The notes under the pieces were generated by a model. It made no database searches and had not been told where the DNA came from. It saw only the letters and a program-made list of their open reading frames with translations. This document shows positions 4,758-26,404 of a stretch of 26,470 bases of DNA, in pieces. Both the position numbers and the translations under genes were made by a program. The stretch is from positions 1 to 26,470 of the IMG/VR virus record IMGVR_UViG_3300025310_000232; one strand, written 5' to 3'. Numbering within the stretch: position 1 is the stretch's first letter; every line of letters starts with the position of its first letter. The DNA is from a virus.

Positions 4758-4761
4758 GGGT

Positions 4762-5109
4762 TTACTGGTTATGTGCTGCTTCTCTTTCGGCTTCGAGGCT
4801 GCGGAGGCGGTACTTGAGCGCCCGCATCATCTCCGTCAGGAGGACGAGGTAGCCCTTGGCGCGGAGGAGAGCCTCGTACTCCTCGGACGCTTCGGCTCGG
4901 ATGCGCGCTTTGGCGGCGGTCATGTCGGGCGTGGACAGCAGGTCGTTGAGCATCCGGTTGTAGGCCATTTCGCGGTCGACGATTTCCTCGTTGACGTTCC
5001 CGATGAGCGACGACAGCTCGGTCAGGACGATTGAAGCCTCGTCGCCGGTCATGTCCTTCGCCTTCAGGAGCCGTGCGCGGTAGTCGTCGATCATCTCCCG
5101 TACGGTCAT
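4762..5109 (-). CDS. Unknown helical early protein (115 aa)
   Basis: I do not recognise this protein. It is almost wholly alpha-helical and highly charged, from MTVREMIDDYRARLLKAKDM to a C-terminal stretch LLTEMMRALKYRLRSLEAER that looks like a coiled coil. Such proteins in phage recombination operons are sometimes small oligomeric accessory factors, but nothing here fixes a function. The start overlaps the stop of the Rad52-like gene as ATGA. The stop is 4 bases before the 3D-domain gene start. Length, composition and codon pattern fit the rest of the early operon. Confidence 0.75.
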   Translation of the reverse strand: MTVREMIDDYRARLLKAKDMTGDEASIVLTELSSLIGNVNEEIVDREMAYNRMLNDLLSTPDMTAAKARIRAEASEEYEALLRAKGYLVLLTEMMRALKYRLRSLEAEREAAHNQ

Positions 5110-5723
5110 ACGCTGGCCTCCAGCCCGGCCTTCACGGCCTTACCTGCGCGGCTGATTGGCTCTCGGCTGACCACGCTGGCAGGACCGGCCGGCTTCACCG
5201 GCTCCGGCATCGTCCGGTTGAAGTCCTCGACCGCCTTGTTCGGGGCAGGTTTCGAGGATGCCGGCTTCGGGGCGAACTTGGCCGGGGTGATCGGCGAGTC
5301 CGCGAGCCGCTCGCCTTCGTCGAGTTCTGGGGCGTACTGCGTGCCGTAGCCGCAGAGGGCAAGCGCACGACCGATAGCGCCGGTCTCGGCCTTCTCGATG
5401 TAGTCAGGGAAGTCGGTCGGCGTCTCCTGCTTCGTTGCCGTGGCGATGAGCCGGCCGTTCTCGTCCTTGATCCGGGCGACGCAGATTGCGCGCTTGCCGG
5501 TGTCCTCCATGGTCAGAAACTCCGTCTCGATTCCCCACGCCGGGTGCTCCTCGCGGAACCAAACGAGTCGGTGGGCAACCTGGAGGTAGGGGTTCTTCTT
5601 GACGACCCAGGTGTTCGTCGTCTTGTCGAGCGACTTCCGTTCCATGATGAGGAACGGCAGTTCGGTCCCCTTCGGGGTTTTCATGGTCGTCGGGACCGGC
5701 TTGGTTGTTGATTGGGTAGTCAT
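5106..5723 (-). CDS. Rad52-like single-strand annealing protein (putative)
   Basis: This 205-residue protein probably binds and anneals single-stranded DNA in phage recombination. The N-terminal domain (about 20-145) contains NPYLQVAHRLVWFREEHPAW (44-63), a strand-turn stretch CVARIKDENGRLIATATKQE (81-100), and EKAETGAIGRALALCGYGTQ (110-129). This last helix-Gly arrangement resembles the Rad52/ERF-type core in which a helix with KRAL or GRAL packs near a Gly turn. The C-terminal 60 residues are Pro/Ala/Lys-rich and look disordered, as in many phage annealing proteins, where they may contact SSB. The SSB gene is downstream in the same operon, which supports the call. I rely on recalled family patterns; a profile search would be decisive. 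Confidence 0.65.
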   Translation of the reverse strand: MTTQSTTKPVPTTMKTPKGTELPFLIMERKSLDKTTNTWVVKKNPYLQVAHRLVWFREEHPAWGIETEFLTMEDTGKRAICVARIKDENGRLIATATKQETPTDFPDYIEKAETGAIGRALALCGYGTQYAPELDEGERLADSPITPAKFAPKPASSKPAPNKAVEDFNRTMPEPVKPAGPASVVSREPISRAGKAVKAGLEASV

Positions 5724-6192: not shown

Positions 6193-6481
6193 GTGCGCTC
6201 CTTTCTCTTATGCTCTTATGACTCTTGGTGGTTCGATCGCTTCCCCCTCCGGCCTGCGTCCGTCCGTGCTGCCTGAGTTTCCCCGCCTCGCAGCGGCACA
6301 AGGCATGGATGGGCAGCAGGCAAGAGAGGGAAAGAATCGAGAGATCGGAGGAACCGCCAGAAAGTTGAGCGGAATGGCGGCTCTCTACAGAGAAGGGGTG
6401 GAGCCTGGAAGCTCCTCGGAACTCTCGGCGGTCAGGGGATGACCGGACTTGGAAGGGGCGGTCGGGGCGACCTGTAAACCT

Positions 6482-6510
6482 ATGATAGCACGCTGTTTAG
6501 CGGCAGTCAA
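6482..6510 (-). promoter_or_regulatory. Strong sigma70-type promoter for the early operon
   Basis: On the minus strand TTGACT (6510-6505) and TATCAT (6487-6482) are separated by exactly 17 bases. The -10 is preceded by TGC, giving an extended TGn -10 element. Each hexamer differs from consensus at one position (TTGACA, TATAAT). Transcription would start near 6475 and run leftward into the early operon after an untranslated leader of about 280 bases. This is the clearest promoter I found in the window. It implies that the phage uses the host housekeeping RNA polymerase for early genes. Confidence 0.75.
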
Positions 6511-6656
6511 CGGTGTTTATCCACAGGCGTCTTTGCGACGACGACGAACCGCTGCAGGTGTTCGTCCCAGCGATAGTGCGTGATTGCCCTCTTGGTCCGT
6601 ACTCTGATTAGTCTGTTCTTCCAAATCATACGTTTTACGACTCTTACTAGCGCCAC
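6507..6656 (-). CDS. Possible small basic protein (40-49 aa) upstream of the early promoter
   Basis: A minus-strand frame ends in TGA at 6507-6509, overlapping the -35 hexamer. It can start at GTG 6656 (49 aa) or ATG 6629 (40 aa). The ATG form begins MIWKNRLIRVRTKRAITHYR and continues WDEHLQRFVVVAKTPVDKHR, which looks protein-like: basic, with aromatic residues and a hydrophobic strand. GGAG lies about 12 bases before the GTG, a weak ribosome site. A chance frame is quite possible. If real, it would be expressed from late read-through or from a promoter I cannot see, and could bind nucleic acid. Confidence 0.3.
   Translation of the reverse strand: MALVRVVKRMIWKNRLIRVRTKRAITHYRWDEHLQRFVVVAKTPVDKHR
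6517..6525 (+). promoter_or_regulatory. Perfect DnaA-box 9-mer
   Basis: TTATCCACA matches the strongest DnaA-binding 9-mer exactly and lies 7 bases from the early promoter -35. A relaxed match, TTTTCCACA, is at 6967-6975, and a second perfect copy is at 22721-22729 inside the portal gene. Exact copies of a given 9-mer are expected about 0.2 times in 26 kb on both strands at even base composition, so two are slightly surprising. A binding site that represses or activates the early promoter, or part of an origin, is possible. There is no cluster of boxes with an AT-rich unwinding element, so origin function is weakly supported. Confidence 0.35.
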
Positions 6657-6810
6657 CCCATAATTCCGCTCCCTGGGGGTGTGCTCGCGACCGAAGAGGG
6701 TGTTTCAGCCGGGGGGTGGTATTCGCGCTCCACGCTGCCAGCCAGTCTCGATCATCTGACTGACAGGGCGGAGGGCGCTACTCGGCTGCCGCTCAAGTCC
6801 TGTTGGTTAT

Positions 6811-6834
6811 GCTCGTACAGCACTTATGACGAGC
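6811..6834. repeat. Inverted repeat, possible operator
   Basis: GCTCGT (6811-6816) and ACGAGC (6829-6834) form a perfect 6-bp dyad with a 12-base spacer, about 300 bases upstream of the early promoter. The 24-base span suits a dimeric regulator, and it is also a weak hairpin. No repressor gene is visible in the window and no second copy of the dyad was noticed, so the role is open. Confidence 0.25.
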
Positions 6835-6870
6835 CCGGTCGGAGTTGTAAGGCGCGCGGAATCGCCTCTG

Positions 6871-6923
6871 GTCCAACGACGGTCAGGGCGACTCCTGCAT
6901 GGAAACTGTTTGTCTCGTTGGAC
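6871..6923. repeat. Inverted repeat just after the last late gene
   Basis: GTCCAACGA (6871-6879) and TCGTTGGAC (6915-6923) are a perfect 9-bp inverted repeat with a 35-base loop, beginning 4 bases after the stop of the 64-residue gene at the end of the leftward late operon. The position is right for a transcription terminator or mRNA 3'-end protecting hairpin. The long loop and the lack of a T-run on the minus strand make it a poor intrinsic terminator. Confidence 0.35.
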
Positions 6924-6927
6924 GCCT

Positions 6928-7122
6928 TCAGTCTTGCACCTTTCCTTCCTTCCGTGAAGACCCCGGTTTTCCACAGGCCAGGCGGCGGGACCGTTCCCGG
7001 AGCTGCGCACGGAGCACATGCTGCTTCTCGATGAACGCGTCGATGGCGAACGTCGAGCAGCGGAACGCTTCGATGACCGAACGCTTGAGACGCGGCCACA
7101 GCGGATTGTAGGAGCGTTTCAT
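6928..7122 (-). CDS. Small basic protein (64 aa) ending the late operon
   Basis: This frame starts at ATG 7122, which overlaps the metallophosphoesterase stop as ATGA and has an excellent Shine-Dalgarno sequence (GGAGAGGAGGTG, about 7 bases upstream), the strongest in the window. It encodes 64 residues, very basic at both ends: MKRSYNPLWPRLKRSVIEAF, then a helix with FAIDAFIEKQHVLRAQLRER, then a Gly/Ser/Lys tail. There is no recognisable domain. Strong coupling to the metallophosphoesterase suggests a joint function, and the charge suggests nucleic acid binding. Both are inference. Confidence 0.65.
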   Translation of the reverse strand: MKRSYNPLWPRLKRSVIEAFRCSTFAIDAFIEKQHVLRAQLRERSRRLACGKPGSSRKEGKVQD

Positions 7123-7853
7123 GCCGACACCTCCTCTCCGTTGACGATTGCGCGTCCCTTCGTGATCTTGACCGGGAACGGCGTCCAGGTCGTGTCGGTC
7201 AGGTAGCCGTAGACGAAGCCCGCCTGCCAGTCCGCGGGCTTGCCCTTGACGTAGTCGAGGGGGACGCAGCCGCAGCCGGCCTCGGTCCAAACGATGTCGC
7301 CTTGCCCGGCGGTCTTCCAGACTTCGGAGAGGCGGTGGGTGTGTCCGGAGACGCCGGAGCGCCACCAGTCGTCCATTTCCCGGTAGGCGGTATATCCGGA
7401 CTTCTTTGACGCTAGGTTGCCGTGCTTGAAGACGACGCCGCGGTACTCCATGTAGCCCGGCTGGACGTAGGCGATCTTGAGCGGCTGAAGTCCAAGGAGC
7501 GACGGCAGGGAGAGGGAGCGGAGGGACCACAGAGCCATCGCGTTTCTCAAGACGAACTTGTTGAGCCGTTCCTCGTGGTTCCCTTCGAGGAAGAACATGC
7601 GGCACCGGGGGCCGGCCGCCTCCCGGTAGCCTCGGATCAGGGCGTGCGTGCCGTCGATGTCGTCCTGGAGTTTCGCCAGGCGGTCGGGGGTCTGGTTGAA
7701 CTTGCTGACCTGGTAGAAGTCGCAGTGGTCGCCGCCCAAAAACACAACGTCCGGCTTCAAGAGCCGGATCGCGTTGAGTCTGCACAGGAAGGTGGCGTCG
7801 TCCTGGTATGGGACGTGGTCGTCGGAGACGAAGACGACGGTTTCCTGTTTCAT
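7119..7853 (-). CDS. Calcineurin-like metallophosphoesterase
   Basis: This is a 244-residue hydrolase of the calcineurin-like superfamily, which cleaves phosphoesters with a two-metal centre. All core motifs are in order: SDDH (D11, H13), GGDH (G40 to H43, D42), GNHE (91-94), HGN (144-146) and SGHTHR (169-174). Length is normal for stand-alone phage and bacterial members. GGAGG lies just upstream of the ATG at 7853, unlike most neighbours, which lack an SD. Phage enzymes of this type have been linked to RNA or DNA 3'-end repair, nucleotide hydrolysis or counter-defence. The substrate cannot be read from the sequence. It sits at the end of the late operon, downstream of the adhesin-like gene and coupled to the 64-residue basic protein. 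Confidence 0.9.
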   Translation of the reverse strand: MKQETVVFVSDDHVPYQDDATFLCRLNAIRLLKPDVVFLGGDHCDFYQVSKFNQTPDRLAKLQDDIDGTHALIRGYREAAGPRCRMFFLEGNHEERLNKFVLRNAMALWSLRSLSLPSLLGLQPLKIAYVQPGYMEYRGVVFKHGNLASKKSGYTAYREMDDWWRSGVSGHTHRLSEVWKTAGQGDIVWTEAGCGCVPLDYVKGKPADWQAGFVYGYLTDTTWTPFPVKITKGRAIVNGEEVSA

Positions 7854-7864
7854 GGCCTCCGGGG

Positions 7865-9217
7865 TTAGCGCCGCAGCCTCTGAACCGTGAGGCGGGCGCT
7901 GTTGGCGAGGCGGAGGGGGCGCGACGACCGCGCAGGAGGAGGGTAGACCAGCGTCGCCCGGATGTACGCCGGGAGCAGCTCGGCAGTGTGGTCCCCCGGG
8001 TGCGAGTACGTTCCGGTCGTGGCTTCGTAGACGTAGATCGTGAGGCGGATGCTCGTTCGCCCGGTCAGGTTGATCTCGTCGTCGACGACCAGCGGGATGT
8101 CCATGAGCCCGGTCGCGGTCGGACCGCTGCCGAGAATGTGGTAGTTGCTCGTGCCGTACGACGCGTTCGGCCGACCCTCGTCGTCGGAGGTAAGCGTCGC
8201 GCCGTTCACGTCGGTCTTCGAGGTATTGAGCACGAAGGCGAAGCTCAGACCATCGTCGTACCCGTCGACGATGAAGGGCTTGAACGACGCATCTTGCAGC
8301 TTCACGCCGGCCGGAAGCGCGCCGTACTGCGCGACGTTCGGCGACCAGTAGGTGTCGGTCTTCTCCGAGAAGCCGGTGCCGCCGTTCGGGGCACTCGGCG
8401 AGGACATGAAGACGAAGCAGTAGGACGTGTCGACCGTCACCACGCCCTCAATGTTGCTGATGAGCCCATCCTGTCCGTCGGGCTGGGGAAAGACGCCTTC
8501 GCGATAGAAGGTCATCGCCATGACCGCCGCCGGGACCATGTTTGCAGCATCCGAGAACCGGAAGCTGGCGTTGGCGATCGATCCGTTGCGCGAGGGGTGC
8601 TCGCTCTCGTAAGCGACTGACCGATAGTGATTCATGGCCACCCCGACGTTGGACGACGCGTTGCGGGCAAAGCCGTCGGAGACGTAGTTCGTGCCGTTGA
8701 TCATCGTGGTGATCAGGGACGAATTCCAGCCCATGATGCCGATGATGATCTGGGCCGGCGCCGAGCGGGTCGGGGTGTTGCCCGGGGTCCGGACCTGGGT
8801 GTTGACCGTCGGCGTGAGGATGCGGCCAGAGCCCTGATCGTAGGGAGTGGAGAGGCCGTAGGAGAGCATCCCCGCGTACTCGGCGACCATGATCGAGGCC
8901 TTCACTGACGAGGCGAAGTTGACGGTGATGAGCGTCGGGCTTCCGACGGGACGGAGGCAGGTCCAGCCTTCGGCGTTCACTCCGGCGCCGTTGCTCAGTT
9001 TGTGCTTCGTAGCGTCCGGGCAGGACCAGGTGTTGCCCGCGTCGTCCGTGATGCTCGTAATCTGCGCGCCGGCGGTGCCGTCGTAGGAGGAGCCCAGGAT
9101 CAGGCCGCTCCGAGCCGCCAAGGCAAAGGTGATCGGAATCTGGTGGCTGATGGCAGCCGTGTTCGTGTCGTAGAACGCGGTGTGGAGCGCGTTATCGGTG
9201 GACGGCGTGGACGGCAT
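7865..9217 (-). CDS. Adhesin-like virion protein, candidate receptor-binding protein
   Basis: This 450-residue protein is beta-rich and full of Gly, Ser, Thr, Asn and aromatic residues, as in tail fibres and carbohydrate-binding surface proteins. Its N-terminal half has the pattern ITSITDDAGNTWSC (about 53-66), then TVNFASSVKASIMVAEYAGM. I know this from extracellular beta-sandwich repeats in secreted and phage proteins. The C-terminal half carries another set of strands ending in LTIYVYEATTG and a basic tail (SARLTVQRLRR). No signal peptide is visible, which fits a virion part. The start overlaps the nucleotidyltransferase end by 26 bases. Receptor binding is inferred from composition and from its location after the virion genes. 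Confidence 0.55.
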   Translation of the reverse strand: MPSTPSTDNALHTAFYDTNTAAISHQIPITFALAARSGLILGSSYDGTAGAQITSITDDAGNTWSCPDATKHKLSNGAGVNAEGWTCLRPVGSPTLITVNFASSVKASIMVAEYAGMLSYGLSTPYDQGSGRILTPTVNTQVRTPGNTPTRSAPAQIIIGIMGWNSSLITTMINGTNYVSDGFARNASSNVGVAMNHYRSVAYESEHPSRNGSIANASFRFSDAANMVPAAVMAMTFYREGVFPQPDGQDGLISNIEGVVTVDTSYCFVFMSSPSAPNGGTGFSEKTDTYWSPNVAQYGALPAGVKLQDASFKPFIVDGYDDGLSFAFVLNTSKTDVNGATLTSDDEGRPNASYGTSNYHILGSGPTATGLMDIPLVVDDEINLTGRTSIRLTIYVYEATTGTYSHPGDHTAELLPAYIRATLVYPPPARSSRPLRLANSARLTVQRLRR

Positions 9218-9866
9218 AGTGCGCTGTCTTCGGTGTTGAGCCGATCTCGAGGAACTTCGGGCCGAATGTGCGCCTCAGCTCGGCAAACTGCGCCGTGCCG
9301 AAGTCGGGACGGATGGAGCATGGCGAATCGTTGTTCCACGGATCGAGTCCATCAATCCAGTCGCCGGATTCGTTGAAGTCGCCGAAGTTCAGTCGGCGCG
9401 GCCGGAGGGGCACTGGCTCACGCCGCGGCCGGTAGGTCCCGTCCGGTTGTCTGTCGACCCGCTGCCTTGACTCCGGGTGGTAGGGCTTGTCCTCGAGGAT
9501 GCGGTAGCAGGCCTTCTCCGGGACGTCCTTGATCGATGGCTCCTGAAACGACAGTTGGAATCGCAGCCCGAATTCTCGGTAGAGCTGACGCAGCGGCTCA
9601 AGGGCCGCCTCGAATGCCTTGCGGTTGGCCTTAGCGGCAGCAATGGCCGCTCGGCGGCGCGCTTCAGTGCCGACCTCGAAGTTGAGGTCGAGGTCCGAGT
9701 GAAGGTCAGCCGCGTCGCGGGCGAACGAGCCCGTCACAGCCAGATCATCCAGGACAAACAATGGCGCCAGGCGCTGCTTCACCTCGGCGACAATGCCCCT
9801 GATGCGGGCCTTCACCCACGAAGGGAAGTCAGCGTAGGAGGGGAATCGGACGGCTGGGTGCTTCAT
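9192..9866 (-). CDS. Nucleotidyltransferase-fold protein in the virion gene block
   Basis: This 224-residue protein carries the Pol-beta-type nucleotidyltransferase signature: AVTGSFARDAADLHSDLDLN, with GS at 46-47 and D58-x-D60, after helices typical of the fold (residues 15-45). It could transfer a nucleotide to protein, RNA or a small molecule. The expected third carboxylate, on the strand LRFQLSFQ (101-108), appears to be missing, with Gln where Asp usually sits, so activity may be altered or lost. The ATG at 9866 overlaps the upstream stop as ATGA. A longer in-frame opening further upstream is a shadow of the 127-residue gene. Its place between a small structural gene and the adhesin-like gene is unusual. 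I cannot say whether it acts on virions, host or defence. Confidence 0.75.
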   Translation of the reverse strand: MKHPAVRFPSYADFPSWVKARIRGIVAEVKQRLAPLFVLDDLAVTGSFARDAADLHSDLDLNFEVGTEARRRAAIAAAKANRKAFEAALEPLRQLYREFGLRFQLSFQEPSIKDVPEKACYRILEDKPYHPESRQRVDRQPDGTYRPRREPVPLRPRRLNFGDFNESGDWIDGLDPWNNDSPCSIRPDFGTAQFAELRRTFGPKFLEIGSTPKTAHYAVHAVHR

Positions 9867-10246
9867 TTCAGCTCGCCGATGGCCGCCGTGTTGGACGAGC
9901 CGCTGGCGGCCTTGATGTAGACGGGCTGCTGGTCCCCGACGTCGATCCAGATGTCTCCGCCGGTGCCGTCGCCGGCAGCTGTTTCCTTGGAGAGCGGAAA
10001 GACGCAGGCGTCCGAGGCGAAGCCCCATAGCAGCACAACGGTCGAGGTGTTCTTGATGTAGACGCCGCGGCGGTCGGTCAGTCGGTTGGAGCCGTGCTTC
10101 ACCTCCGTCGCGGAGCTTCCGATGCTCGAGAGGGACTTGGCGAGACTGGCACCTTCATTGATCGGCTGGCTGCGGACTCGGCGCTCACCGATCTCATCGG
10201 TGAGCTTCTTGTGCTCGCGGACGTCGATGTCGTGCTTTGAAGACAT
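9863..10246 (-). CDS. Small beta-rich virion-type protein (127 aa)
   Basis: The protein has a charged helical N-terminus (DIDVREHKKLTDEIGERRVR) and a beta-rich C-terminal half: GVYIKNTSTVVLLWGFASDA, later GDIWIDVGDQQPVYIKAASG. The alternating strand pattern and the IWIDVGDQQPVYI repeat-like motif resemble small head-decoration or fibre-attachment proteins of phages. There is no enzyme motif. It follows the 1085-residue protein by 3 bases and is coupled by ATGA to the nucleotidyltransferase gene. The leader before its ATG is AACCGCTAACCC, without a Shine-Dalgarno sequence. A structural role is inferred. Confidence 0.65.
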   Translation of the reverse strand: MSSKHDIDVREHKKLTDEIGERRVRSQPINEGASLAKSLSSIGSSATEVKHGSNRLTDRRGVYIKNTSTVVLLWGFASDACVFPLSKETAAGDGTGGDIWIDVGDQQPVYIKAASGSSNTAAIGELK

Positions 10247-10249
10247 GGG

Positions 10250-13507: not shown

Positions 13508-13522
13508 GCGTCATGTGGCTGG

Positions 13523-14362: not shown

Positions 14363-14368
14363 AGTCGT

Positions 14369-14974: not shown

Positions 14975-14983
14975 AGGTGTTAT

Positions 14984-15436: not shown

Positions 15437-15447
15437 GGGCAGAGTAG

Positions 15448-15800: not shown

Positions 15801-15818
15801 GGGCGATCGGTTAACGGA

Positions 15819-16337: not shown

Positions 16338-16349
16338 AGGCGTGGTTGA

Positions 16350-17867
16350 TTACTTAAATCCTTCGAGGGGTTGATGATGTGGGGTAATACCGAGGAAGCG
16401 GAAGGGTTGGTTGATTCCGGAGTGCGACACCCGGAACTGGAGCCCGCGGGCTTTCGTGACGGTGAAGCCGCGCAGATAGCCCTCGATGATGTCCTGCCCC
16501 TGCCAGTACTTGCCGGTGGCCTGCCAGAGCGAGCCGTCGAGCGCCCAGCGTTCCGCGTCAGGGGCTAGGTCGATGAGTGCTTCTCGGAAGCCCCCAAGCG
16601 TTGAGGAGCGCCAGCCGAGCTTGACGAAGTACTGCGTGGTGGCGGCATCGAACTGGTAGAACAGGTGCTTCCAGCGGTTCCGGCGGTGCCTGCCTGCCGG
16701 GGTCTTGAACGGCAGAACGTAGTAGGCGCTCATGGCCGCCCCGTTGTGGTTGTAGCTGGCGGCCGCGTCATCGACGTAGCGCTTGTACGTCCCGGAGTTG
16801 CCCGCGCTCCCGCCGAAGATCAGTTGCTGTTTCCCGTCGGACTGCTCAAAGACGCAGAAACAGGCAGCCGGCCAGTCCTTCAGGAGCCAGGCACCGGTCC
16901 GGGGCTTGAAACGCAGGACCTTCGTGTTCACGGTCTGGCCGGAGGGGGTGTACGCGAGCCAGTACTCGTTCTGGTACCACTCGCCCGCGAGGTTCGACTC
17001 CTTCGACTGATCCATGCCGTAGAACTCAGGCTCCACGACGCCGGAGAGGTAGTCGTCCTGGGAGTAGCCGCGGTGCCTCCACGCACCCTGCCGGTTGGCG
17101 AAGTAGTGATAGCCGTCGGTGCCCTGAATGATCGACCGGAGCGCGGTGGTGGACTGGGAGCCAAGCGGAGTAAACGCTAACACGCTGAAGGTCAGAGCCG
17201 ACCAGGAGTACTTCATCCGTTCCTTGTAGACGATCTGGCGGCTGCCCAGGTGGCGTAGCGCGACGATCTTGCCGGCCCCGTCCTTCTTCCAGCACTCGAT
17301 GTCGCCGCCGCCTGCGAAGTTCTCGTAGTCTCCGAGCGCGGAGTAGTTGATCTTCGACGCGTCGTTGCCGGCGGTCCACAGGCGGTCGTTGAAGAAGTCG
17401 ATCGTGGTGCCGTTGTCGATGCCGGCGACCGTTGTGGAGACGGTGCCGGGGTCGAACGTCCACTTACGGGGCGTATCGACGCCGTTGACCATGTACACGA
17501 TGTCGTTGGCGACAACGAAGTCCCAGACACGACCGGAGGTGAGCCCGGTGGCGATCGAGGTCCATCCGGTGCCATCCCGGCACTCAATAACCGTGCCGCG
17601 GGACCGCAGGAGCCGTTTCGTGCCGTCGGACTTGTAGGCCGCGAAGACGCGGGTGACGACGTCGGAGCCGGAGAACGTGCCTTCGGCGGTGTAGCCGAGG
17701 TCCGTCTTCACGATTCCATCCTCGGTAATGTCAACGTTCAGGAGATCCGGCGACTCGTTCGTGAGTGTTCTGGGGTCGTCCCGGAGGTTGAGCCCGCCGA
17801 ACGGTCCATGCAGAGGGAGCGGGAGCCACTCGTCCGTATCGGAGATGATTGGGCGTGCTTTCGGCAT
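16350..17867 (-). CDS. Nozzle / tail-tube-type beta-propeller protein (podovirus tail)
   Basis: This 505-residue beta-rich protein resembles the nozzle or stabilisation proteins that close the short tail of podoviruses. It opens with GPFGGLNLRDDPRTL (21-35) and SPDLLNVDITEDGIVKTDLG (39-58), the recurring F-x-G-G-L-N-x-R-D-x-P and L-x-N-V motifs of this group. Repeated strand blocks follow (SGRVWDFVVANDIVYMVNGV; then NDRLWTAGNDASKINYSALG and DYENF). It comes directly after the adaptor gene, the order seen in podoviral tails. The leader before the ATG is TGAACCACACCC, with no Shine-Dalgarno. This gene is the main reason for suggesting podovirus morphology. Confidence 0.75.
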   Translation of the reverse strand: MPKARPIISDTDEWLPLPLHGPFGGLNLRDDPRTLTNESPDLLNVDITEDGIVKTDLGYTAEGTFSGSDVVTRVFAAYKSDGTKRLLRSRGTVIECRDGTGWTSIATGLTSGRVWDFVVANDIVYMVNGVDTPRKWTFDPGTVSTTVAGIDNGTTIDFFNDRLWTAGNDASKINYSALGDYENFAGGGDIECWKKDGAGKIVALRHLGSRQIVYKERMKYSWSALTFSVLAFTPLGSQSTTALRSIIQGTDGYHYFANRQGAWRHRGYSQDDYLSGVVEPEFYGMDQSKESNLAGEWYQNEYWLAYTPSGQTVNTKVLRFKPRTGAWLLKDWPAACFCVFEQSDGKQQLIFGGSAGNSGTYKRYVDDAAASYNHNGAAMSAYYVLPFKTPAGRHRRNRWKHLFYQFDAATTQYFVKLGWRSSTLGGFREALIDLAPDAERWALDGSLWQATGKYWQGQDIIEGYLRGFTVTKARGLQFRVSHSGINQPFRFLGITPHHQPLEGFK

Positions 17868-17889
17868 GGGTGTGGTTCAGGGCTCGGAC

Positions 17890-17918
17890 CCTCTACCGCC
17901 GGAGGAGGGCAGTAGAGG
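17890..17918. repeat. Intercistronic hairpin between adaptor and nozzle genes
   Basis: CCTCTAC (17890-17896) and GTAGAGG (17912-17918) form a perfect 7-bp stem with a 15-base loop in the 61-base gap between the adaptor and nozzle genes. No T-run follows. It may be an RNA processing or stability element, one of three hairpins found in the larger gaps of the late operon. Confidence 0.35.
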
Positions 17919-17928
17919 ATCTGAGCGC

Positions 17929-18528: not shown

Positions 18529-18532
18529 GGGG

Positions 18533-19216: not shown

Positions 19217-19236
19217 GGCTCCTCCGGTGCGGTCAA

Positions 19237-19644
19237 TTACTCTTCGTCGGAGGAGTCGGCGCCCTCGGCGGCGGCTTCATCGTCAACGTCAGCGGCAGTT
19301 GTCGGCTTGGCTTTGACGCCGGCGCGTTGTCCGGCGCGGGTGCGCGGTCGCGTGACTTCCAGTTCTTCGCCTTCGGCGGAGGAGGCAACGGCGGGATTGA
19401 CCGTCGCCGACAGGTCGTCCTGGTTCTCGAAGTAGTCGATGCCGTACGACCGGTCATTCCGCAGGAACTCGATGATTTCCGGGTCGGAGGTCGTAAAGAC
19501 ACCGTGGTCAAACTCAGCGGTCTTGCCCGGCGTGTTCATGAACCGTCCGTCAACGATAACTTTGCTGCGCGGGACGACGACGACTCGGAGCTTCGTGTAC
19601 TTCGAGTAGAACGTGACTGCCGCGCTCTCTGACTTTCGTGCCAT
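19237..19644 (-). CDS. Small head-region protein (135 aa)
   Basis: The N-terminal 65 residues are a compact beta-rich domain: TKLRVVVVPRSKVIVDGRFM, then TPGKTAEFDHGVFTTSDPEI. The pattern V-P-x-x-x-x-x-x-G and F-x-x-G-x-x-x-T-x-D resembles small proteins often encoded just after capsid genes in phages. The remainder is low complexity, with RTRAGQRAGVKAK, then a strongly acidic end (DVDDEAAAEGADSSDEE). Head completion or decoration is a reasonable inference from its place after the major capsid gene. There is no enzyme motif. The leader TAGCCACCACATCT is similar to that of the capsid gene. Confidence 0.65.
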   Translation of the reverse strand: MARKSESAAVTFYSKYTKLRVVVVPRSKVIVDGRFMNTPGKTAEFDHGVFTTSDPEIIEFLRNDRSYGIDYFENQDDLSATVNPAVASSAEGEELEVTRPRTRAGQRAGVKAKPTTAADVDDEAAAEGADSSDEE

Positions 19645-19698
19645 AGATGTGGTGGCTAATGGTTCAAGTAGGGGCTGGTGCCGCCCTTCCCGCTCCCC

Positions 19699-19718
19699 CC
19701 AAGTCCCGCAGGGCTTGG
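19699..19718. repeat. Hairpin downstream of the capsid gene
   Basis: CCAAG-T-CCC (19699-19707) pairs with GGG-CTTGG (19711-19718) around the loop GCA: eight base pairs with one bulged base. It lies 24 bases after the capsid stop in a 97-base gap. On the minus-strand RNA it is followed by a G-rich, not U-rich, stretch, so it is more likely a mRNA 3' protection, pausing or processing hairpin than a terminator. Confidence 0.45.
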
Positions 19719-19741
19719 AGGAGAGACGGGGAGAGAATCAC

Positions 19742-20896
19742 CTAGTACTGCAGGACGTCTTTGAGGATGGCGTGGGTCTTCTCCTGGACGACCATGAGAC
19801 CAGCCTCGGTGATGTACTCGTCCTTTTCGCCGTCCTGGTCATTGGCCTGGACGTTCATCTTCAGCCGCGTGTCGCGGTTCTGAAGCGGGCGGTACATGAC
19901 GTTTTCAAGGTCGACGAGGAAGGCGTAGCCGCCGTACTCCTGGTTGGTTGCCCCGGCTCCCTCGAGCATGTCGTGGGAGATGATCAGCACCTCACCATGC
20001 GGCGAGAGGTACTGGGCAATCGCGATCCCGTAGGTCTTGTCCTTCGGGAACATCTGGAGCTTGCCCTGCGCCCATGAGCTGATGGCGCTGACGATGAGTC
20101 GCGAGGCGAACAGGTACTTCTTCCGGCTGCCGTACCGGAAGCCAGAGCGGAGGAACGACTCGAACTCGGCTTCGGTGAGGGTTCCGCCGGCGTCCGTGAC
20201 GTTCGTGGTGATGAACGTGTTGAGACCGCGGGTGTACCGGCGCGGGTGCGTGCCGGACGTGTCGATAGCGCGCTCACCGAAGAAGAACGCTCGTTCTAGC
20301 TTCTGCGAGTGCTTGATGCCGACGATGCGGCGCTGCTCCGGGAGGTCCGGACCGGTGTACGTGTCCGTCTCCATCATCGTCCCGGTGTCTTCGATGGACG
20401 ACTTGAAGATCTGGCAGTAGTTGTAGACCTCGGCCGAGAGTCCGGTGTTCGCTGTCGCGGAGGTTGTGCCTTCCTCGAAGGCCGAACCGATGATCCAGAG
20501 CGGTTCGTTGTCAGCGAGGGCGCCGGCAGCGGTTTCACCAACGCCGCGAACGACCGTCAGGATGTTCGTCGAGATGGCCGTGACGCGCATGACTTCACCC
20601 GTGGACGGGACCTTGACGGTGTCCTGCGGGGAGAAGTAGCTGCCGTTGTCGACCACGATGGAGGTCGAGCCAGCGGTGTAGCCGGTCGAGTAGTTGACGG
20701 CGTCGATGTAGCTCTCGATGTTCTGCTCGAACCACGAGAACTTCGGGTTGGTCGTGACTTTCTTCCGAAGTTTCGCGGTCAGGGCCACGAGAGGGGCCTT
20801 GTTCGCGTCAAGCAGGTAGAGCTTGTTGTCGACGTCGGGTTTGATTTGGGCGGCGGTGATGTTGCCAGTACCGCGCGCCCCTGAGAGGTTGGCCAT
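19742..20896 (-). CDS. Major capsid protein, SU10/DUF5309 type
   Basis: This is a 384-residue HK97-fold capsid subunit. It begins MANLSGARGTGNITAAQIKP and continues with the N-terminal arm and KVTTNPKFSWFEQ. It then has an inserted beta domain with GSTSIVVDNGSYFSPQDTVK and a conserved block NYCQIFKSSIEDTGTM. Late in the chain come GIAIAQYLSPHGEVLIISHD and MLEGAG, a segment I associate with the DUF5309 / SU10 capsid family. Length and the scaffold gene immediately upstream support the call. The upstream leader AACCAGCCACATTC lacks a Shine-Dalgarno sequence. As the most abundant virion protein it should be strongly translated, so the missing SD is notable. Confidence 0.9.
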   Translation of the reverse strand: MANLSGARGTGNITAAQIKPDVDNKLYLLDANKAPLVALTAKLRKKVTTNPKFSWFEQNIESYIDAVNYSTGYTAGSTSIVVDNGSYFSPQDTVKVPSTGEVMRVTAISTNILTVVRGVGETAAGALADNEPLWIIGSAFEEGTTSATANTGLSAEVYNYCQIFKSSIEDTGTMMETDTYTGPDLPEQRRIVGIKHSQKLERAFFFGERAIDTSGTHPRRYTRGLNTFITTNVTDAGGTLTEAEFESFLRSGFRYGSRKKYLFASRLIVSAISSWAQGKLQMFPKDKTYGIAIAQYLSPHGEVLIISHDMLEGAGATNQEYGGYAFLVDLENVMYRPLQNRDTRLKMNVQANDQDGEKDEYITEAGLMVVQEKTHAILKDVLQY

Positions 20897-20911
20897 GAAT
20901 GTGGCTGGTTG

Positions 20912-21766
20912 CTATCTAAGCACGGTGTTGTCGTGTCCTCCTGCTGCTGTAATTTCGTCGAAGATGTCTCCTTCGCCCGCCGGTTTGCCGGTAGATCCGG
21001 TGCCGGTCTCCGAGTTGTCTGACGACAGGTCTCGGAGCTTCTTCTGCTTGCGCCCCTCGGCTGCGTCGGCAAGTTGCTTGCCGGCGACCGCGTAGTAGAG
21101 CGTGTCAAGGTCCAGCTTGCCATCGGTCTGCTGATCGAGCTTCGCCATCGCCACGCGATGCTTCGCGCGGTCCGGGTACTTCTCGAAGTAGCTGTCGACC
21201 TGGGCCTTGGCCTCTCTGAGCTCAAGCGGTGTGACGACCTGCCGGGCGGTGGCCTGGCCGGCCTCCATCGAAACTTCCGCCACGAGTTCAAGCGATGCGA
21301 GGTGCTCTGCGCTGAGCGTCTTGGGGTCGACGCCTCGGCGTTTCAGGGCACTCTCGACGGCCGCTCGGGCCGGGGAGGGCTGGTTGCCCTGATCGCCCGG
21401 CTTTTTGGGACCGCGCTGGGCTTCCTCGATGGCGTCCTTCGCTTCACGCATGCGCTCCTGGAACCGCTGGTTCATTGAGCGATACTGCGCCTTGAGCTCG
21501 GGTGGGAGCTTTGCGACTTCTTCGGGTGTAAGGAGCTGTGCTTCGGTCTTCTCGCTGCCCTCTTGAGAGTCAGCGTCATCCTGCTCGCTATCCTCCGTGC
21601 GTTCCGAGCCGTCTGCCGCGCCCTCGTGGGCTTGGTTTCCGTCCTGGGACGCGCCGGTGTTCGTTTCCGCTTGTTCGGTACCGTCCTTGTCGTCGTCGGC
21701 CGCAGCTTGCGCGCCGTCGTCGGTGGAGTTCCCGAGTGCGGAAGACTTGTCGGTCGTGTCTTCCAT
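20912..21766 (-). CDS. Capsid scaffolding protein (putative)
   Basis: This 284-residue protein is very acidic over the first 75 residues (Asp, Glu, Gln, Ser and Gly dominate). Helical charged segments follow, LKAQYRSMNQRFQERMREAK and VESALKRRGVDPKTLS, and a third helix block DSYFEKYPDRAKHRVAMAKL. There is a short basic RKQKKLR stretch near residue 240 and a flexible end. No catalytic motif is visible. An acidic disordered head plus coiled coil and a basic C-terminal patch, encoded directly before the capsid protein, is the classic scaffold layout. A capsid-associated protease is not evident, so the scaffold may exit intact or be cut by a host enzyme. Confidence 0.75.
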   Translation of the reverse strand: MEDTTDKSSALGNSTDDGAQAAADDDKDGTEQAETNTGASQDGNQAHEGAADGSERTEDSEQDDADSQEGSEKTEAQLLTPEEVAKLPPELKAQYRSMNQRFQERMREAKDAIEEAQRGPKKPGDQGNQPSPARAAVESALKRRGVDPKTLSAEHLASLELVAEVSMEAGQATARQVVTPLELREAKAQVDSYFEKYPDRAKHRVAMAKLDQQTDGKLDLDTLYYAVAGKQLADAAEGRKQKKLRDLSSDNSETGTGSTGKPAGEGDIFDEITAAGGHDNTVLR

Positions 21767-21827
21767 GGGGGTGTCCGTTTACGAAATGAGCCAGTCGCCT
21801 GATGGCGCTGGCACGGTAGGGATGAAC

Positions 21828-21881
21828 GCCCTTGGAAGGATTCACCCCTCCGTGCAAACGCACCAGGAGGATTCCAAGGGC
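21828..21881 (-). ncRNA. Long intercistronic stem-loop before the scaffold gene
   Basis: GCCCTTGGAA (21828-21837) and TTCCAAGGGC (21872-21881) pair perfectly over 10 bp. Inside, CCTCC (21847-21851) pairs with GGAGG (21866-21870) and GTGC (21852-21855) with GCAC (21860-21863) around a 4-base loop. The whole 54-base element folds as one long interrupted hairpin, in the 133-base gap between the 101-residue gene and the scaffold gene. No U-run follows on the transcribed strand. It could be an RNase III-type processing site, an mRNA stabiliser for the abundant scaffold-capsid message, or a regulatory structure. No open frame fits the gap. Confidence 0.55.
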
Positions 21882-21899
21882 TGTCGTTGTGGAAAGGGA

Positions 21900-22205
21900 C
21901 TAGGCGAGCTCGCCGGTAGCCGCGCCTTCGGCCGGCTCTTGCGCGGCCTTCTTCTCCATCGCCTTGATGAACTGCCGCTGGCCTTCAATCTCGTTCAGGA
22001 GCCACTTGATGCCTTCACGCCGCTCGAAGTACGAGCTGTACTCGTCCGGCCGGAGCTTCTTCGGTCCTGTGAGCTTCTGGTTCAGGAAGGCGATGCCAGA
22101 GAGGACGTGCTTTTTCTCGAAGGCCTCCCAGTTCGGCGTCTCCGTCATTTCGACGACGAGCCGGGCGTGCTCGAGGGCGAGTTGTTCTTCCGGAGAGAGT
22201 TCCAA
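21900..22205 (-). CDS. Unknown helical protein (101 aa) after portal genes
   Basis: I do not recognise this acidic, helical protein. It has LSPEEQLALEHARLVVEMTE near the start and EGIKWLLNEIEGQRQFIKAM later, with an Ala/Glu-rich tail. The first start codon in frame is TTG at 22205, 12 bases after the upstream gene's stop and in the same frame; an ATG exists at codon 20. No Shine-Dalgarno sequence is visible for either, so the start is uncertain, and reinitiation after the upstream stop is possible. Its place between portal and scaffold suggests a head-assembly accessory role, but this is inference. Confidence 0.6.
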   Translation of the reverse strand: MELSPEEQLALEHARLVVEMTETPNWEAFEKKHVLSGIAFLNQKLTGPKKLRPDEYSSYFERREGIKWLLNEIEGQRQFIKAMEKKAAQEPAEGAATGELA

Positions 22206-22217
22206 GGGGTGGGGAGG

Positions 22218-22634
22218 TTAGGCGACGAGGGACGGGTGGGCTTGTTCCTCGGCGGAGCGCGGGCGGATGAGCTCCTTGCGCTCGTCGCGGATCTCCGTCA
22301 CGACCGCGATCAGGTCGTTGAGGGTCCGTTCGAGAAGGCGGTCCGCCTCCTGCTTTGATTGAACACCGTGCTCGGGATTCTGGCAAGCCCTCTCGGCCGC
22401 TGACACGGCTTCGCGCAGCTTCGAGAAGACTGGTACGAAGCGCTGCGTGAACTCTTGGGACTTCATCTGCTGCGCGACGACGTTGCCTTTGTGTGGCGTG
22501 GCACGGGACTTGGGGGCCTTTGGCTTGGGTTCATCGCCCATAAGCGCGGCGGCACGGGGGCCGTGGGAGGATCGCAGGCGTTGCTGATCGGTCATGTTGA
22601 CGATGCGTTCCGCCTCCGAATGGTCGAATGGCAT
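22218..22634 (-). CDS. Unknown helical protein (138 aa) after portal
   Basis: I do not recognise this protein. It is charged and helical, with a basic, flexible first third (MPFDHSEAERIVNMTDQQRL, then DEPKPKAPKSRATPHKG) and helices such as QQMKSQEFTQRFVPVFSKLR and EADRLLERTLNDLIAVVTEI. No membrane segment or enzyme motif is visible. It starts 4 bases after the portal stop and precedes the 101-residue gene in the same frame. Two adjacent small helical genes between portal and scaffold suggest head accessory proteins. Composition also allows a nucleic-acid-binding or internal protein. Confidence 0.65.
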   Translation of the reverse strand: MPFDHSEAERIVNMTDQQRLRSSHGPRAAALMGDEPKPKAPKSRATPHKGNVVAQQMKSQEFTQRFVPVFSKLREAVSAAERACQNPEHGVQSKQEADRLLERTLNDLIAVVTEIRDERKELIRPRSAEEQAHPSLVA

Positions 22635-22638
22635 GGGC

Positions 22639-24621
22639 TTAGAGCTTAGTGGTTGAAGCTAGAGTCTGGGACTGGTCCGGAGTAGGCGCGTCGAGAGGCA
22701 CAACGTCGTCAACGGGCTGGTTATCCACAGGAGGAACCGGCGGCGCTGGTGGCGGCGGAGTCAGCTTGATCTTGGCGTAGGCCTCGATCGCGTTCATGAG
22801 CTCGGTCGGATTGACCTTGATTTCATCGAATAGCTCCAGCAACGGGCGCAGGATTGGCTTCGCAGCCGCGATCTTGAGCGGGTCGCCGGACAGGAGCTTG
22901 TCGGTCAGCTCCATGAGCTGCATGCCCTGCTTCCGGCTGACTTCCTTGTACGCCACCACGGACTTCGCGTCGTAACGGAGCCGTTTGGCGCTCACGCCAG
23001 CGAAGTTGGCCGGCGAGAAGTCTTGCTCCTGGAGGTCGCCGTTGGCGTCGACCCAGTCGAGACTCTGGTCATCCTCCCAGTTCTGCTGCACGAGCATGTG
23101 GACCAAGCGCGCATGGCGGTTGAGGGAGCGCTCCAGCCGCCGGATGACGCCGTCGTAGCGTTCATTCGCGGACGATACGAGCAGGTCGGTCTGGCCGAGA
23201 GTCTCATCGGCCCGCTTGCCTCCTCCGACCACGTACTCGTTGGCACCGGTCGCCCGGGCCATGTCCTGCAGCAGCAGCCCATCTTCCTGGTAGGCGCTGG
23301 ACGTAACGTCCTTCGTTTCCTTCTCCTTGAGGTTCCCGAGTTCGCTCAACCGGATGACGCCATTCGGTCGGTGCACGAGATCCCCGTCCTCGAGCGGCTC
23401 GTCTTTCTGCAGCAGCGTCATGCCGTCGATGGCACGGCTGACGTTGTCCATCCGTTGATTGCGCTTGTCGGCCCGCTCCAGCACGAGTCGTTCAAGCTCG
23501 CGGGCTACGCCGACGTTTCGAAGGTTGAACGTGTCCTCGATGTAGCCAAAGACCACAAGCGGCAGCTCGCCCTCGGGCATCGGATTCGGTCGGTCGCGGA
23601 GCACGGCCTTCCTGTTGGCCAGCGTGACCAGGCGGCCTTTCGGGTACTTCTTGCACGGCCGCTCCCAGCATTCCAGGAGTTCAACCATCGGGTCGTCTTT
23701 GTCGTCATCGGGCGCGGCGGTCGTGTCGGTCTGGCCGAGGTTCGAGGAGTCTGTCTGGCCGAGAACGTCGGATTTGCGGGGCAGTCTGTGGACCTTGTCG
23801 CGATCGAGGGTGGGGTCATCGGCGGTGTTGGCGGCCGAGGCGTCGAGCTGCGAGAGGTCGTAGAGCTTCTCATCCAGCTCGGACTTTCGCTTGAAGTACT
23901 GGAAGATGACCCACGGCAGGTCCTCCTCGCGGGCATAGCCCCGCGGGAAGAAGACCCGGGCCGGATCGCAGACCTCTGAGACTGGAGCGTGGTAGTCAGG
24001 GACGAACTGCGTCTTTGGCTTCTCGGTCGTGGTTACGTTGCCTTCGTCGTCCTTCGTTTCGACGGCCTCCATGACTTGGCGTCGCTTCGTGAACCCGGTC
24101 GGCTGACCAAGCTGGTCGAGAACCGGGATGTGCTCGTAGACCGGCTCCTCATGGCCGGTTGTCTTCCAGGTGATCTTCTCCGGGCCGAACCCGAACCAAG
24201 TGCCACGTTTGACGAGCACCTCGAACTTGTCGTCCATGTCCATGATCGACCAAAGCGCGTCGTGGCCGCGCTGGACGGCGAGGGCGGTATCCGTGGAAAC
24301 AGACCGTCCGCCGAGCACGATCGGCCGCGGTCTGCCCTTGGTGAGGCGCGGCACGATCGACTCGACGGCGGCGTGGACGTCAGGCGGGAAGATGTTCGAC
24401 CGGTAGGGGCCTCGAAACTCCCGCCACATGTACCAGAACTCGAACGCCTGCTGATCGCGTTCGATGAACGGCTCGAGAAACTTCTTGGCCTTCGTGAAGC
24501 GGCTCGTCCACGTCTGCACCGTCTCAGAGTTGTCCTGCTGCTTCTTCGTCGGTGGCGGTGCGGAAGGCAGGGACGGGTTCTCCTGGCCTCCGAGGGGTTT
24601 GGTTTCGCCGAGTGTAGGCAT
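22639..24621 (-). CDS. Portal protein
   Basis: This is a 660-residue portal, the dodecameric ring at the packaging vertex. I start it at ATG 24621 (MPTLGETKPLGGQENPSLPS), 8 bases after the terminase stop; an opening 63 codons further upstream is out-of-frame terminase sequence. Portal hallmarks include helices around PFIERDQQAFEFWYMWREFR (51-70), GPYRSNIFPPDVHAAVESIV (71-90) and KGRPRP (95-100). A long helical clip and stem region in the middle follows, then a helical crown rich in charged residues. The C-terminal 40 residues are Pro-rich. The length resembles P22-like and other podoviral portals. The gene lies immediately after the large terminase, the usual order. The leader is TAACAACGCCC, with no Shine-Dalgarno sequence. 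Confidence 0.88.
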   Translation of the reverse strand: MPTLGETKPLGGQENPSLPSAPPPTKKQQDNSETVQTWTSRFTKAKKFLEPFIERDQQAFEFWYMWREFRGPYRSNIFPPDVHAAVESIVPRLTKGRPRPIVLGGRSVSTDTALAVQRGHDALWSIMDMDDKFEVLVKRGTWFGFGPEKITWKTTGHEEPVYEHIPVLDQLGQPTGFTKRRQVMEAVETKDDEGNVTTTEKPKTQFVPDYHAPVSEVCDPARVFFPRGYAREEDLPWVIFQYFKRKSELDEKLYDLSQLDASAANTADDPTLDRDKVHRLPRKSDVLGQTDSSNLGQTDTTAAPDDDKDDPMVELLECWERPCKKYPKGRLVTLANRKAVLRDRPNPMPEGELPLVVFGYIEDTFNLRNVGVARELERLVLERADKRNQRMDNVSRAIDGMTLLQKDEPLEDGDLVHRPNGVIRLSELGNLKEKETKDVTSSAYQEDGLLLQDMARATGANEYVVGGGKRADETLGQTDLLVSSANERYDGVIRRLERSLNRHARLVHMLVQQNWEDDQSLDWVDANGDLQEQDFSPANFAGVSAKRLRYDAKSVVAYKEVSRKQGMQLMELTDKLLSGDPLKIAAAKPILRPLLELFDEIKVNPTELMNAIEAYAKIKLTPPPPAPPVPPVDNQPVDDVVPLDAPTPDQSQTLASTTKL

Positions 24622-24629
24622 GGGCGTTG

Positions 24630-26330
24630 TTAGTAGCCGGTGATCGCGGAGTACTCCGGCGCCGCAGTCCGCCGGGCAGCACGGATAGGCTTGGTGTAGG
24701 GGTGGAGCTTCAGGAGCTGGAGGGCGCCGCCGAGCGACATGACGCAGTCGTCGTGGCAGTGCTCCTGGGCAGCGGTCGTACCGTCGGGGCGACGGACGAA
24801 GGTGAGACACTCGTCGAGCGTGCGGGCGCTGTTGATCGTGACGCTGCGCTCGCGGAACCGCTGCCTGATCTCATCTACCAGTAAAGGCTTTGATTTGCCG
24901 GTTGTCAACCACCCGAGCTTCTTCGTCCGCTTGTTCGTGCGTTCGTCAATCTGCACCGAGCGGAAGAGATGTGTGTATCCGGAGCGCTTCAAGGCCACGA
25001 GAACGGAACCGCCGTGCTGGCCATTGCGCTCAAAGCCGACCAGAGCGCTTCGGAAGAACCAGCCGAGATTCGGGAGGATGTCGGAGCCGAGGAGGTCGGG
25101 GTCGATGTGGCCGTGCCACTGGGCCACCTGCTCACTGGTCTCCTTATCGAAGACATCCACGGACGTGTAGTCGCCGGTTGCCAACCCCTCCGACGGGTCG
25201 GCGAAGACGACGTACTGGCCTTCGGGCCTCGGCATACTCCAGATCGAGAGCGGACCTTTCGGGTCGGCCGCGAAACGGATTTTCTCTACCGGGTTGGCCG
25301 GGTCCTTCTCGTCGACGTAGGTCTCGAGGTAGCCGCGCCACTTCGGAGGAGCGATTCGCTTCTGCATCGCGCGGATGTCGGCCACGGGGAGAGCCGGGGA
25401 GCCGGACGTGAGGAAGCAGTCGACGTCGTTCTCGGGGTATTCCTGCAAGAACTGGTCGAACGAGTCGAACTCCTTGGCCTTCTGGCGGCGCCAATGGAGC
25501 TGCTCGAGGTCGAGATCGTAGAGCCTCCGAGCCTGTTTCTCGTTCGCGGTCAGCGACTCCTTGAAACGCTGTCGCTCCGCGTCGCTCTCGAAGGGGCGCC
25601 GGTACTCGTGGTGCTCATACCAGGCGATGAAGACCGGCGTGTAGGCGTTCTCTCCCCGCTTGGCGGCCTCCCAGAGGCGGTGAAACGCGTCCCCGACGCC
25701 GTTGGCCGTCGTTTCGAGGACGATAGCCGTGTTCGGCCGGTCCGGGACCGCGTTTTGAACGCTTAGGAGGAGCGTCGCGAGGTCGGGATAGAACGCCGCC
25801 TCGGAACAGTGCACGTTGCGGAGCGTCTTGGAACGGCCAGCACGGACGTTGCGAGCCGAAGCAACCGAGAGGCGGGAACGTAGCCCGGGGCGAGCAGGAC
25901 GGTCAGCATCCGACGGATTCTCAAAGACCAGCTCGCGCCGGTTCGAGTACCGCTGCATCGGGCGCAAGGCCGGCGGAAGCTGCTCGTTGAACAGCTTGAC
26001 CATGTCGAAGAGGTGGACCGCCGAATCGTCGTCGTGGCTGACGATGAGCGAGCTGACGTTCTTGTGGGTGACGGTGTCGTGGAAGATCCAGCCGTCAATC
26101 CACGTCGAGACGCCTTCCTGGCGAGCCTTGAGGATGAGGAGCCTGACGGGTTCGTTCGCCTTGCGCTTGGCGTCGATGATCCGCTGGAGCTTCTCCTGCG
26201 TAGCGTTCGGGGCGAGCCGGACGAGGCGGTTGTCTTTCGTCTTGATCCAGAGAAACCGCCGCGCGTACCAGCGGACATCGTCCCTAATCCTCCGAAGTTT
26301 CTGCTTCTGGTCTTTCGTCAGGGTCGTCAT
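24630..26330 (-). CDS. terL: Terminase large subunit
   Basis: This 566-residue packaging motor has an ATPase domain and a nuclease domain. The Walker A variant KARQEGVST is at 69-77, the Walker B-type NVHCSEAAF at 172-180 with the catalytic Glu, and the coupling motif LETTANG at 205-211. The RNase H-like nuclease domain shows VVFADPSEG (D378), VGFERNGQHG (431-440) and HDDCVMSLGGAL (526-537), giving three acidic positions. It cuts the concatemer and drives DNA into the prohead through the portal encoded next. The small terminase is not visible; it may lie beyond the right edge. The reading frame is open upstream of the ATG into the adjacent IS element, so an N-terminal difference cannot be excluded, but the length is normal. 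Confidence 0.93.
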   Translation of the reverse strand: MTTLTKDQKQKLRRIRDDVRWYARRFLWIKTKDNRLVRLAPNATQEKLQRIIDAKRKANEPVRLLILKARQEGVSTWIDGWIFHDTVTHKNVSSLIVSHDDDSAVHLFDMVKLFNEQLPPALRPMQRYSNRRELVFENPSDADRPARPGLRSRLSVASARNVRAGRSKTLRNVHCSEAAFYPDLATLLLSVQNAVPDRPNTAIVLETTANGVGDAFHRLWEAAKRGENAYTPVFIAWYEHHEYRRPFESDAERQRFKESLTANEKQARRLYDLDLEQLHWRRQKAKEFDSFDQFLQEYPENDVDCFLTSGSPALPVADIRAMQKRIAPPKWRGYLETYVDEKDPANPVEKIRFAADPKGPLSIWSMPRPEGQYVVFADPSEGLATGDYTSVDVFDKETSEQVAQWHGHIDPDLLGSDILPNLGWFFRSALVGFERNGQHGGSVLVALKRSGYTHLFRSVQIDERTNKRTKKLGWLTTGKSKPLLVDEIRQRFRERSVTINSARTLDECLTFVRRPDGTTAAQEHCHDDCVMSLGGALQLLKLHPYTKPIRAARRTAAPEYSAITGY

Positions 26331-26381
26331 CGAGGGAATCGAGCCGTAAGCTTCCCCCTCTCGTAGACAGCCGTTGCTAAA

Positions 26382-26399: not shown

Positions 26400-26404
26400 G
26401 GCAC

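Follow-up and report, generated by a model that had tools for sequence, protein, structure and literature searches.

Introduction

In phyla that make little use of Shine-Dalgarno (SD) sequences, C is favored just before the start codon and C/A near -15 (PMC5397173). Leaders of Bacteroidetes carry A/T at -12/-13 and those of Chlorobi carry C/T before the start, and binding of ribosomal protein S1 to such unstructured leaders has been proposed (PMC3155529). In Flavobacterium johnsoniae, A at -3, -6, -12, and -13 raises translation (PMC6847099), and SDs in Flavobacterium are read preferentially by ribosomes that lack bS21 (PMC9976891). One leader class, defined by principal component 3, has been attributed to leaderless mRNA and/or S1 and to relaxed structure (Nakagawa et al., 2017; PMC5397173). 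Among phages, the bS21-encoding phages of Bacteroidetes are thought to match the SD-less ribosomes of Bacteroidota and carry SDs on few genes (PMC9723584).

The window, which is the whole stretch of DNA analysed here, is an IMG/VR virus record of 26,470 bases with 63% GC and no tRNAs. Most of its leaders belong to a class that matches the already known start-site style of Bacteroidota-type bacteria. To our knowledge, which here reflects a small literature search, there are few accounts in phages of SD-less leaders in their GC-rich form, which has C/A where A/T would otherwise stand.

Results

Start set and its support

A run of minus-strand genes extends from 26.3 to 4.2 kb of the window and encodes a terminase, portal, capsid, nozzle-like protein, and other products (Table 1). 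The set examined comprised 26 minus-strand genes. Starts in the window and in its two closest relatives, L001 and L002 (capsids 80% and 67% identical), were curated by hand; a simple automatic gene caller was weak on GC-rich DNA and kept only 11 of the window genes. Starts of isolate phages were taken from their annotation. A gene was scored as SD-less if GGAG, GAGG, and AGGA were absent from -18 to -4. The start calls are supported because start codons align in relatives: those of the capsid, nozzle-like, fibre-like, scaffold, 101-aa, 227-aa, and 199-aa genes are exactly aligned in L001 (with an ATG opposite the TTG of the 101-aa gene), and that of the capsid gene is also aligned in L002. The number of genes is small, and two starts (22205 and 15436) were added after the pattern had been seen, both with homology support, so that the statistics below are exploratory.

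Table 1. Leaders (positions -20 to -1) of minus-strand genes in the window, in the order of the gene run.
Gene	Leader position	Strand	Start	Leader	Remarks
Portal	24622..24641	-	ATG 24621	SD-less, accggctacTAAcaacgccc	matches phrog_1216
138-aa	22635..22654	-		SD-less, contains AACC, ends TAAgccc	
101-aa	22206..22225	-	TTG 22205	SD-less, TAAcctccccacccc	start aligned with ATG in L001
284-aa, scaffold position	21767..21786	-		SD-less, gtaaacggacaccccc	start aligned with L001
Major capsid	20897..20916	-		SD-less, TAGcaaccagccacattc	start aligned with L001 and L002; matches phrog_1328
135-aa	19645..19664	-		SD-less, aaccattagccaccacatct	
227-aa, glycosyltransferase-like	19217..19236	-		SD, ccGGAGGAGcc	SD kept in L001 and L002
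199-aa	18529..18548	-		SD-less, TAGcccc	
505-aa, nozzle-like	17868..17887	-		SD-less, ctgaaccacaccc	start aligned with L001
172-aa, fibre-like	16338..16357	-		SD-less, TAAtcaaccacgcct	start aligned with L001
49-aa	15801..15820	-		SD-less, tccgttaaccgatcgccc	
68-aa	15655..15674	-		SD, AGGAG within upstream gene	ATGA overlap
150-aa	15437..15456	-	ATG 15436	SD-less, TAActactctgccc	
201-aa	14975..14994	-		SD-less, TAGataacacct	
279-aa	14363..14382	-		SD-less, TAGacgact	
1085-aa	13508..13527	-		SD-less, agTAAccagccacatgacgc	
127-aa	10247..10266	-		SD-less, cgtaaccgcTAAccc	
244-aa, phosphoesterase	7854..7873	-	7853	SD gene, TAAccccGGAGgcc	
87-aa	6193..6212	-		SD, aaAGGAGcgcac	after 926-base gap
70-aa	5933..5952	-		SD, GGAGG within upstream gene	ATGA overlap
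205-aa	5724..5743	-		SD-less, attaaccgactcaccgc	ATGA overlap with preceding gene
115-aa	5110..5129	-		SD, GGAGG	ATGA overlap
188-aa (3D-domain gene of the first-pass annotation)	4758..4777	-		SD-less, cataaccagTAAaccc	

Most leaders lack an SD and are poor in G

No SD 4-mer precedes 20 of the 26 genes, and with a 4-mer background of ≈15%, SD occurrence is at or near chance for most genes. The first-pass annotation had quoted nine leaders without an SD, and all nine are present before their minus-strand starts; the TTG at 22205 and the ATG at 15436 add two further genes to this class. From -20 to -1, the 20 SD-less leaders consist of A 0.29, C 0.40, G 0.14, and T 0.17 (A+C ≈69%), compared to A 0.21, C 0.345, G 0.29, and T 0.16 on the coding strand of the genes themselves. 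The interval from -12 to -1 is 14% G and 72% A+C, compared to 31% and 52% before internal ATGs of the same genes. In 20,000 random samples of internal ATGs, none reached the low G or the high A+C of the SD-less leaders. Moreover, the depletion of G extends some codons beyond the start codon.

Position-specific preferences are superimposed on this composition. In the window leaders, A occurs at -13 in 0.65 and at -6 in 0.55; in the pooled leaders of the window, L001, and L002, these peaks are 0.53 and 0.51, and a pyrimidine occupies -1 in 0.85. A is found at -3 in only 0.10 of the leaders, where C is dominant and G nearly absent. The region from -15 to +10 is predicted to be unpaired at a fraction of 0.58, compared to 0.41 for coding positions picked at random (p = 3e-7), and the predicted fraction drops to 0.475 when random coding 20-mers are swapped in for the leaders.

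AACC and CCC exceed composition in the window

AACC is present in 11 of the 20 SD-less leaders, compared to a mean of 4.1 in mono-nucleotide shuffles (p = 0.001) and ≈1 before internal ATGs, and the motif reported in the first-pass annotation is thus more frequent than in randomized sequence. TAACC occurs in six leaders (0.76 in the shuffles), and CCC stands directly before the start in ten (1.2 in the shuffles). By contrast, CCAC/ACCA shows no excess over composition in the window leaders. Part of the AACC and TAACC excess arises because TAA stop codons adjoin CC; once the upstream stops are masked, nine leaders retain AACC (3.3 expected; p = 0.0015) and ten retain the final CCC (1.75 expected). 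Because AACC exceeds the composition shuffles, composition is an incomplete account of these leaders.

AACC lies anywhere from -20 to -4 with no fixed distance to the start, and nine of the 20 window genes lack it; 15 of the 28 AACC starts in the window, L001, and L002 fall within the seven positions from -16 to -10. AACC is also above composition in L002 (9 compared to 3.0), and its excess in L001 is not significant (2/10, p = 0.44). The 12-mer AACCAGCCACAT, described earlier as identical before the capsid and 1085-aa genes, does occur twice in the window, at 20899-20910 and 13513-13524. It was ruled out as a shared element, since none of the 122 fetched loci contains it.

A minority of genes carries SDs

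Six genes of the set bear an SD (starts 5109, 5932, 6192, 7853, 15654, and 19216). Four of these had been singled out before for strong SDs, and 5109 and 5932 are added here. A fifth start from that earlier group, 7122, begins a 64-aa ORF that is outside the 26-gene set and has a strong SD by eye. SD 5-mers precede 5 of the 26 genes, whereas coding sequence has them at 2.7% per site (p = 5.5e-4), and this excess implies that some of the SDs are not due to chance. Together with the six SD genes, it indicates that the anti-SD of the host is probably not wholly silent. GGAGG before the 227-aa gene is kept in the window, L001, and L002, where the start in L002 was inferred from its ORF, and the other leaders of these three phages are mostly SD-less. 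By analogy with bS21-lacking ribosomes in Flavobacterium, a regulatory use of such kept SDs is conceivable. A search for bS21 (PF01165) gave no match at E ≤ 1 in the window and four relatives, all of which are fragments.

Leader style follows lineage

A capsid tree supports a group made up of the window, L001, and L002, and leaders of the same genes in L001 and L002 are mostly SD-less and G-poor. Leader identity to the window is 0.37 in L001 and 0.35 in L002, compared to 0.29 for random pairing. Because orthologous leaders are near random identity yet still G-poor, composition is better kept than letters. A low-GC group (L004, L005, and L008) likewise shows no SD excess; its leaders are A/T-rich and G-poor with little AACC. 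A occupies position -6 in 76% of them, -12 in 58%, and -11 in 55%, which resembles A-6 and A-12/-13 in F. johnsoniae (PMC6847099).

A third, sister group (L013, L020, L023, L025, L026, L028, and L042) is mostly SD-poor, but on other grounds. Many of its genes have a sigma70-type promoter resembling TTGACA-17-TATAAT, with the -10 box ending 5-8 bases before the ATG, which suggests that mRNAs of this group are near-leaderless. In L020, the promoter core AATTGTCTAA is present four times. Most of the remaining capsid relatives have a clear SD excess, as judged by SD counts per locus. Portal and nozzle scans found no new close relatives. A capsid profile search of genome contigs, tried as a route to the host, returned five distant MAG loci (Humimicrobiia, Omnitrophota, Deltaproteobacteria, Syntrophomonadaceae, and Clostridia); those examined had SDs, and the search named no host.

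Phages of Salinibacter ruber have similar leaders

Salinibacter is a GC-rich host of the Rhodothermota. Among annotated isolates, phages of S. ruber are the best match to the window. Compared by leaders alone, M1EM-1, M8CR30-2, and M31CR41-2 (59-65% GC) are SD-poor and have C/A-rich, G-poor leaders with frequent AACC. Their pooled leaders consist of A 0.30, C 0.36, G 0.18, and T 0.16, with AACC in 33%; in two of the phages, AACC exceeds composition (21 compared to 12.9; p = 0.008). The match is incomplete: SD 4-mers precede 5-12% of the Salinibacter phage genes compared to 23% in the window, the position of AACC is broader, and CCC before the ATG is weaker. Isolates infecting Thermus, Polaromonas, Microcystis, Roseobacter, and Caulobacter were compared as well, and none resembles the window in SD use and leader composition together. 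Plasmid genes of Salinibacter and Rhodothermus share the low SD use of the window (4-18%, compared to 53% on a Cupriavidus plasmid) but their leaders are less depleted of G and not enriched in AACC.

Discussion

The reading that we favor, and hold to be probable, is that most of these genes use ordinary SD-independent initiation on unstructured, G-poor leaders, in the style of Bacteroidota, Chlorobi, and Rhodothermota transposed to a GC-rich setting. In a tightly packed run where most genes begin 3-20 bases past the preceding stop, the spacer and first codons avoid G, which in a genome of 63% GC leaves mostly C and A. A sequence of this kind would give the anti-SD nothing to pair with and would form little structure, and the start codon would stay open. 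The 30S subunit could then land on the open leader and take the AUG, probably with S1 in contact with the A-bearing segment around -13, and would often be handed on from the ribosome terminating on the preceding gene. A minority of genes would keep a true SD. The likeness in leader style suggests a Bacteroidota- or Rhodothermota-like host, to which we give about an even chance.

Stops supply TAAC or TAACC in several leaders (101-aa, 1085-aa, and 127-aa genes) and the coding strand is C-rich. Such leaders might therefore be a by-product of TAA or TAG stops that lie a short spacer away from starts which were picked to match. This account is largely refuted and we consider it very improbable: the AACC and CCC excesses survive stop masking, G falls from 0.29 to 0.14, the depletion runs past the start codon, and the starts are aligned with those of relatives. 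The short spacers themselves also allow termination-reinitiation from the preceding gene to be the main route, with leader composition merely keeping the spacer open, and 16 of the 20 SD-less genes begin 3-20 bases past, or overlap, the preceding stop. The scaffold, 135-aa, and nozzle-like genes follow long gaps (133, 97, and 61 bases) and carry the same leaders, and because of these, coupling is not the sole route. Reinitiation is compatible with SD-independent initiation on open leaders and does not exclude it, and as the main route we judge it unlikely.

The same operon-like spacing, with genes 3-20 bases apart in a long run, speaks against the opposite arrangement, in which a separate promoter lies directly before each gene, mRNAs are leaderless, and the leader letters are promoter letters with AACC at the place of the -10 box. 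Such an arrangement has precedents in the sister-clade promoters and in the leaderless mRNAs that Nakagawa et al. raised for the same bias (PMC5397173). A sigma70 promoter before each window gene was nevertheless rejected: pattern searches found nothing resembling TTGACA-17-TATAAT in the window, L001, or L002, and a promoter scan of 7000-26470 found none. Moreover, the positional profile has no -35-like signal and AACC lacks the tight spacing of the sister clade, which leaves leaderless transcription a decidedly unlikely explanation. AACC could instead be read, as (T)AACC centered near -13, as a specific element that replaces the SD and is recognized by a host or phage-altered ribosome through an rRNA segment, S1, or another factor. 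The excess in the window, L002, and two Salinibacter phages and the clustering from -16 to -10 favor such an element, but the lack of a significant excess in L001, the nine window genes without AACC, its spread from -20 to -4, the turnover of letters between orthologous leaders, and the scarcity of AACC in the low-GC relatives do not. The only obvious rRNA partner of AACC, GGUU of helix 45, is bound in a stem and would be offset by ≈12 bases from the register of the SD site, and neither the fixed distance nor the conserved motif expected of direct pairing with 16S rRNA outside the anti-SD was found. We therefore regard a dedicated AACC element as improbable. The residual excess near -13 in the window, L002, and the Salinibacter phages possibly reflects a weak sequence preference; it may be a mild liking for a pair of A followed by C in the part that would face S1, or something more specific.

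These results separate two parts of the alternative initiation signal postulated in the first-pass annotation. Initiation that looks largely SD-independent, on leaders that differ from background, is supported; a specific new signal is not, as letters turn over, the 12-mer is unconserved, and AACC is spread. The suggestion that the leaders are matched to the host ribosome fits in that leader style follows lineage, and plausibly host: Salinibacter phages are alike, and most other capsid relatives are SD users.

Among described systems, the leaders of Bacteroidota and Chlorobi (F. johnsoniae and Prevotella bryantii; PMC6847099, PMC3155529) resemble those of the window in being open and without SDs, with A near -13 and -6, a pyrimidine at -1, and avoidance of G. 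The window differs in its high GC, in C replacing A/T over much of the leader, in its few strong SDs, and at -3, where A is a positive determinant in F. johnsoniae and the window has C instead. The principal component 3 class of Nakagawa et al. (2017; PMC5397173) has the same base preferences at similar positions, but was described for cellular genomes, and in the window its U signal near -25 is weak if present at all. Like the bS21-encoding phages of Bacteroidetes (PMC9723584), the window has SDs on few genes; no bS21 gene was found in it or in the four relatives, all of them fragments. A more elaborate scheme would have two start classes, with C/A-rich leaders bearing AACC near -13 serving SD-blind ribosomes, and a few strong-SD genes, such as the 227-aa gene in three relatives, serving ribosomes with a freed anti-SD, giving control of gene sets at the level of translation during infection. 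We consider this scheme a long shot.

One capsid tree thus holds SD users, near-leaderless users, and users of SD-less open leaders, and a phage family can switch start-site style, presumably along with its hosts. For uncultivated phages, leader style can thus hint at the host, and in genomes of this kind starts may be placed wrongly by gene callers that look for SDs.

Other features of the window were noted. The plus strand of 1-2356 encodes, in tandem, a DNA methyltransferase (PF01555), an XhoI/PaeR7I-type restriction endonuclease (PF04555, E 3e-57), and a HEPN-domain protein, apparently a restriction-modification module carried by the phage. The endonuclease was tried as a host clue and was uninformative, with matches at ≈40% on plasmids of many Proteobacteria. 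On the minus strand, the 926 bases at 6193-7119, between the 244-aa and 87-aa genes, hold no gene of the examined set. An inverted repeat, CCCTTGGAATCCTCC...GGTGAATCCTTCCAAGGG, was seen by eye at ≈21803-21899 on the same strand, within the 133-base gap before the scaffold gene.
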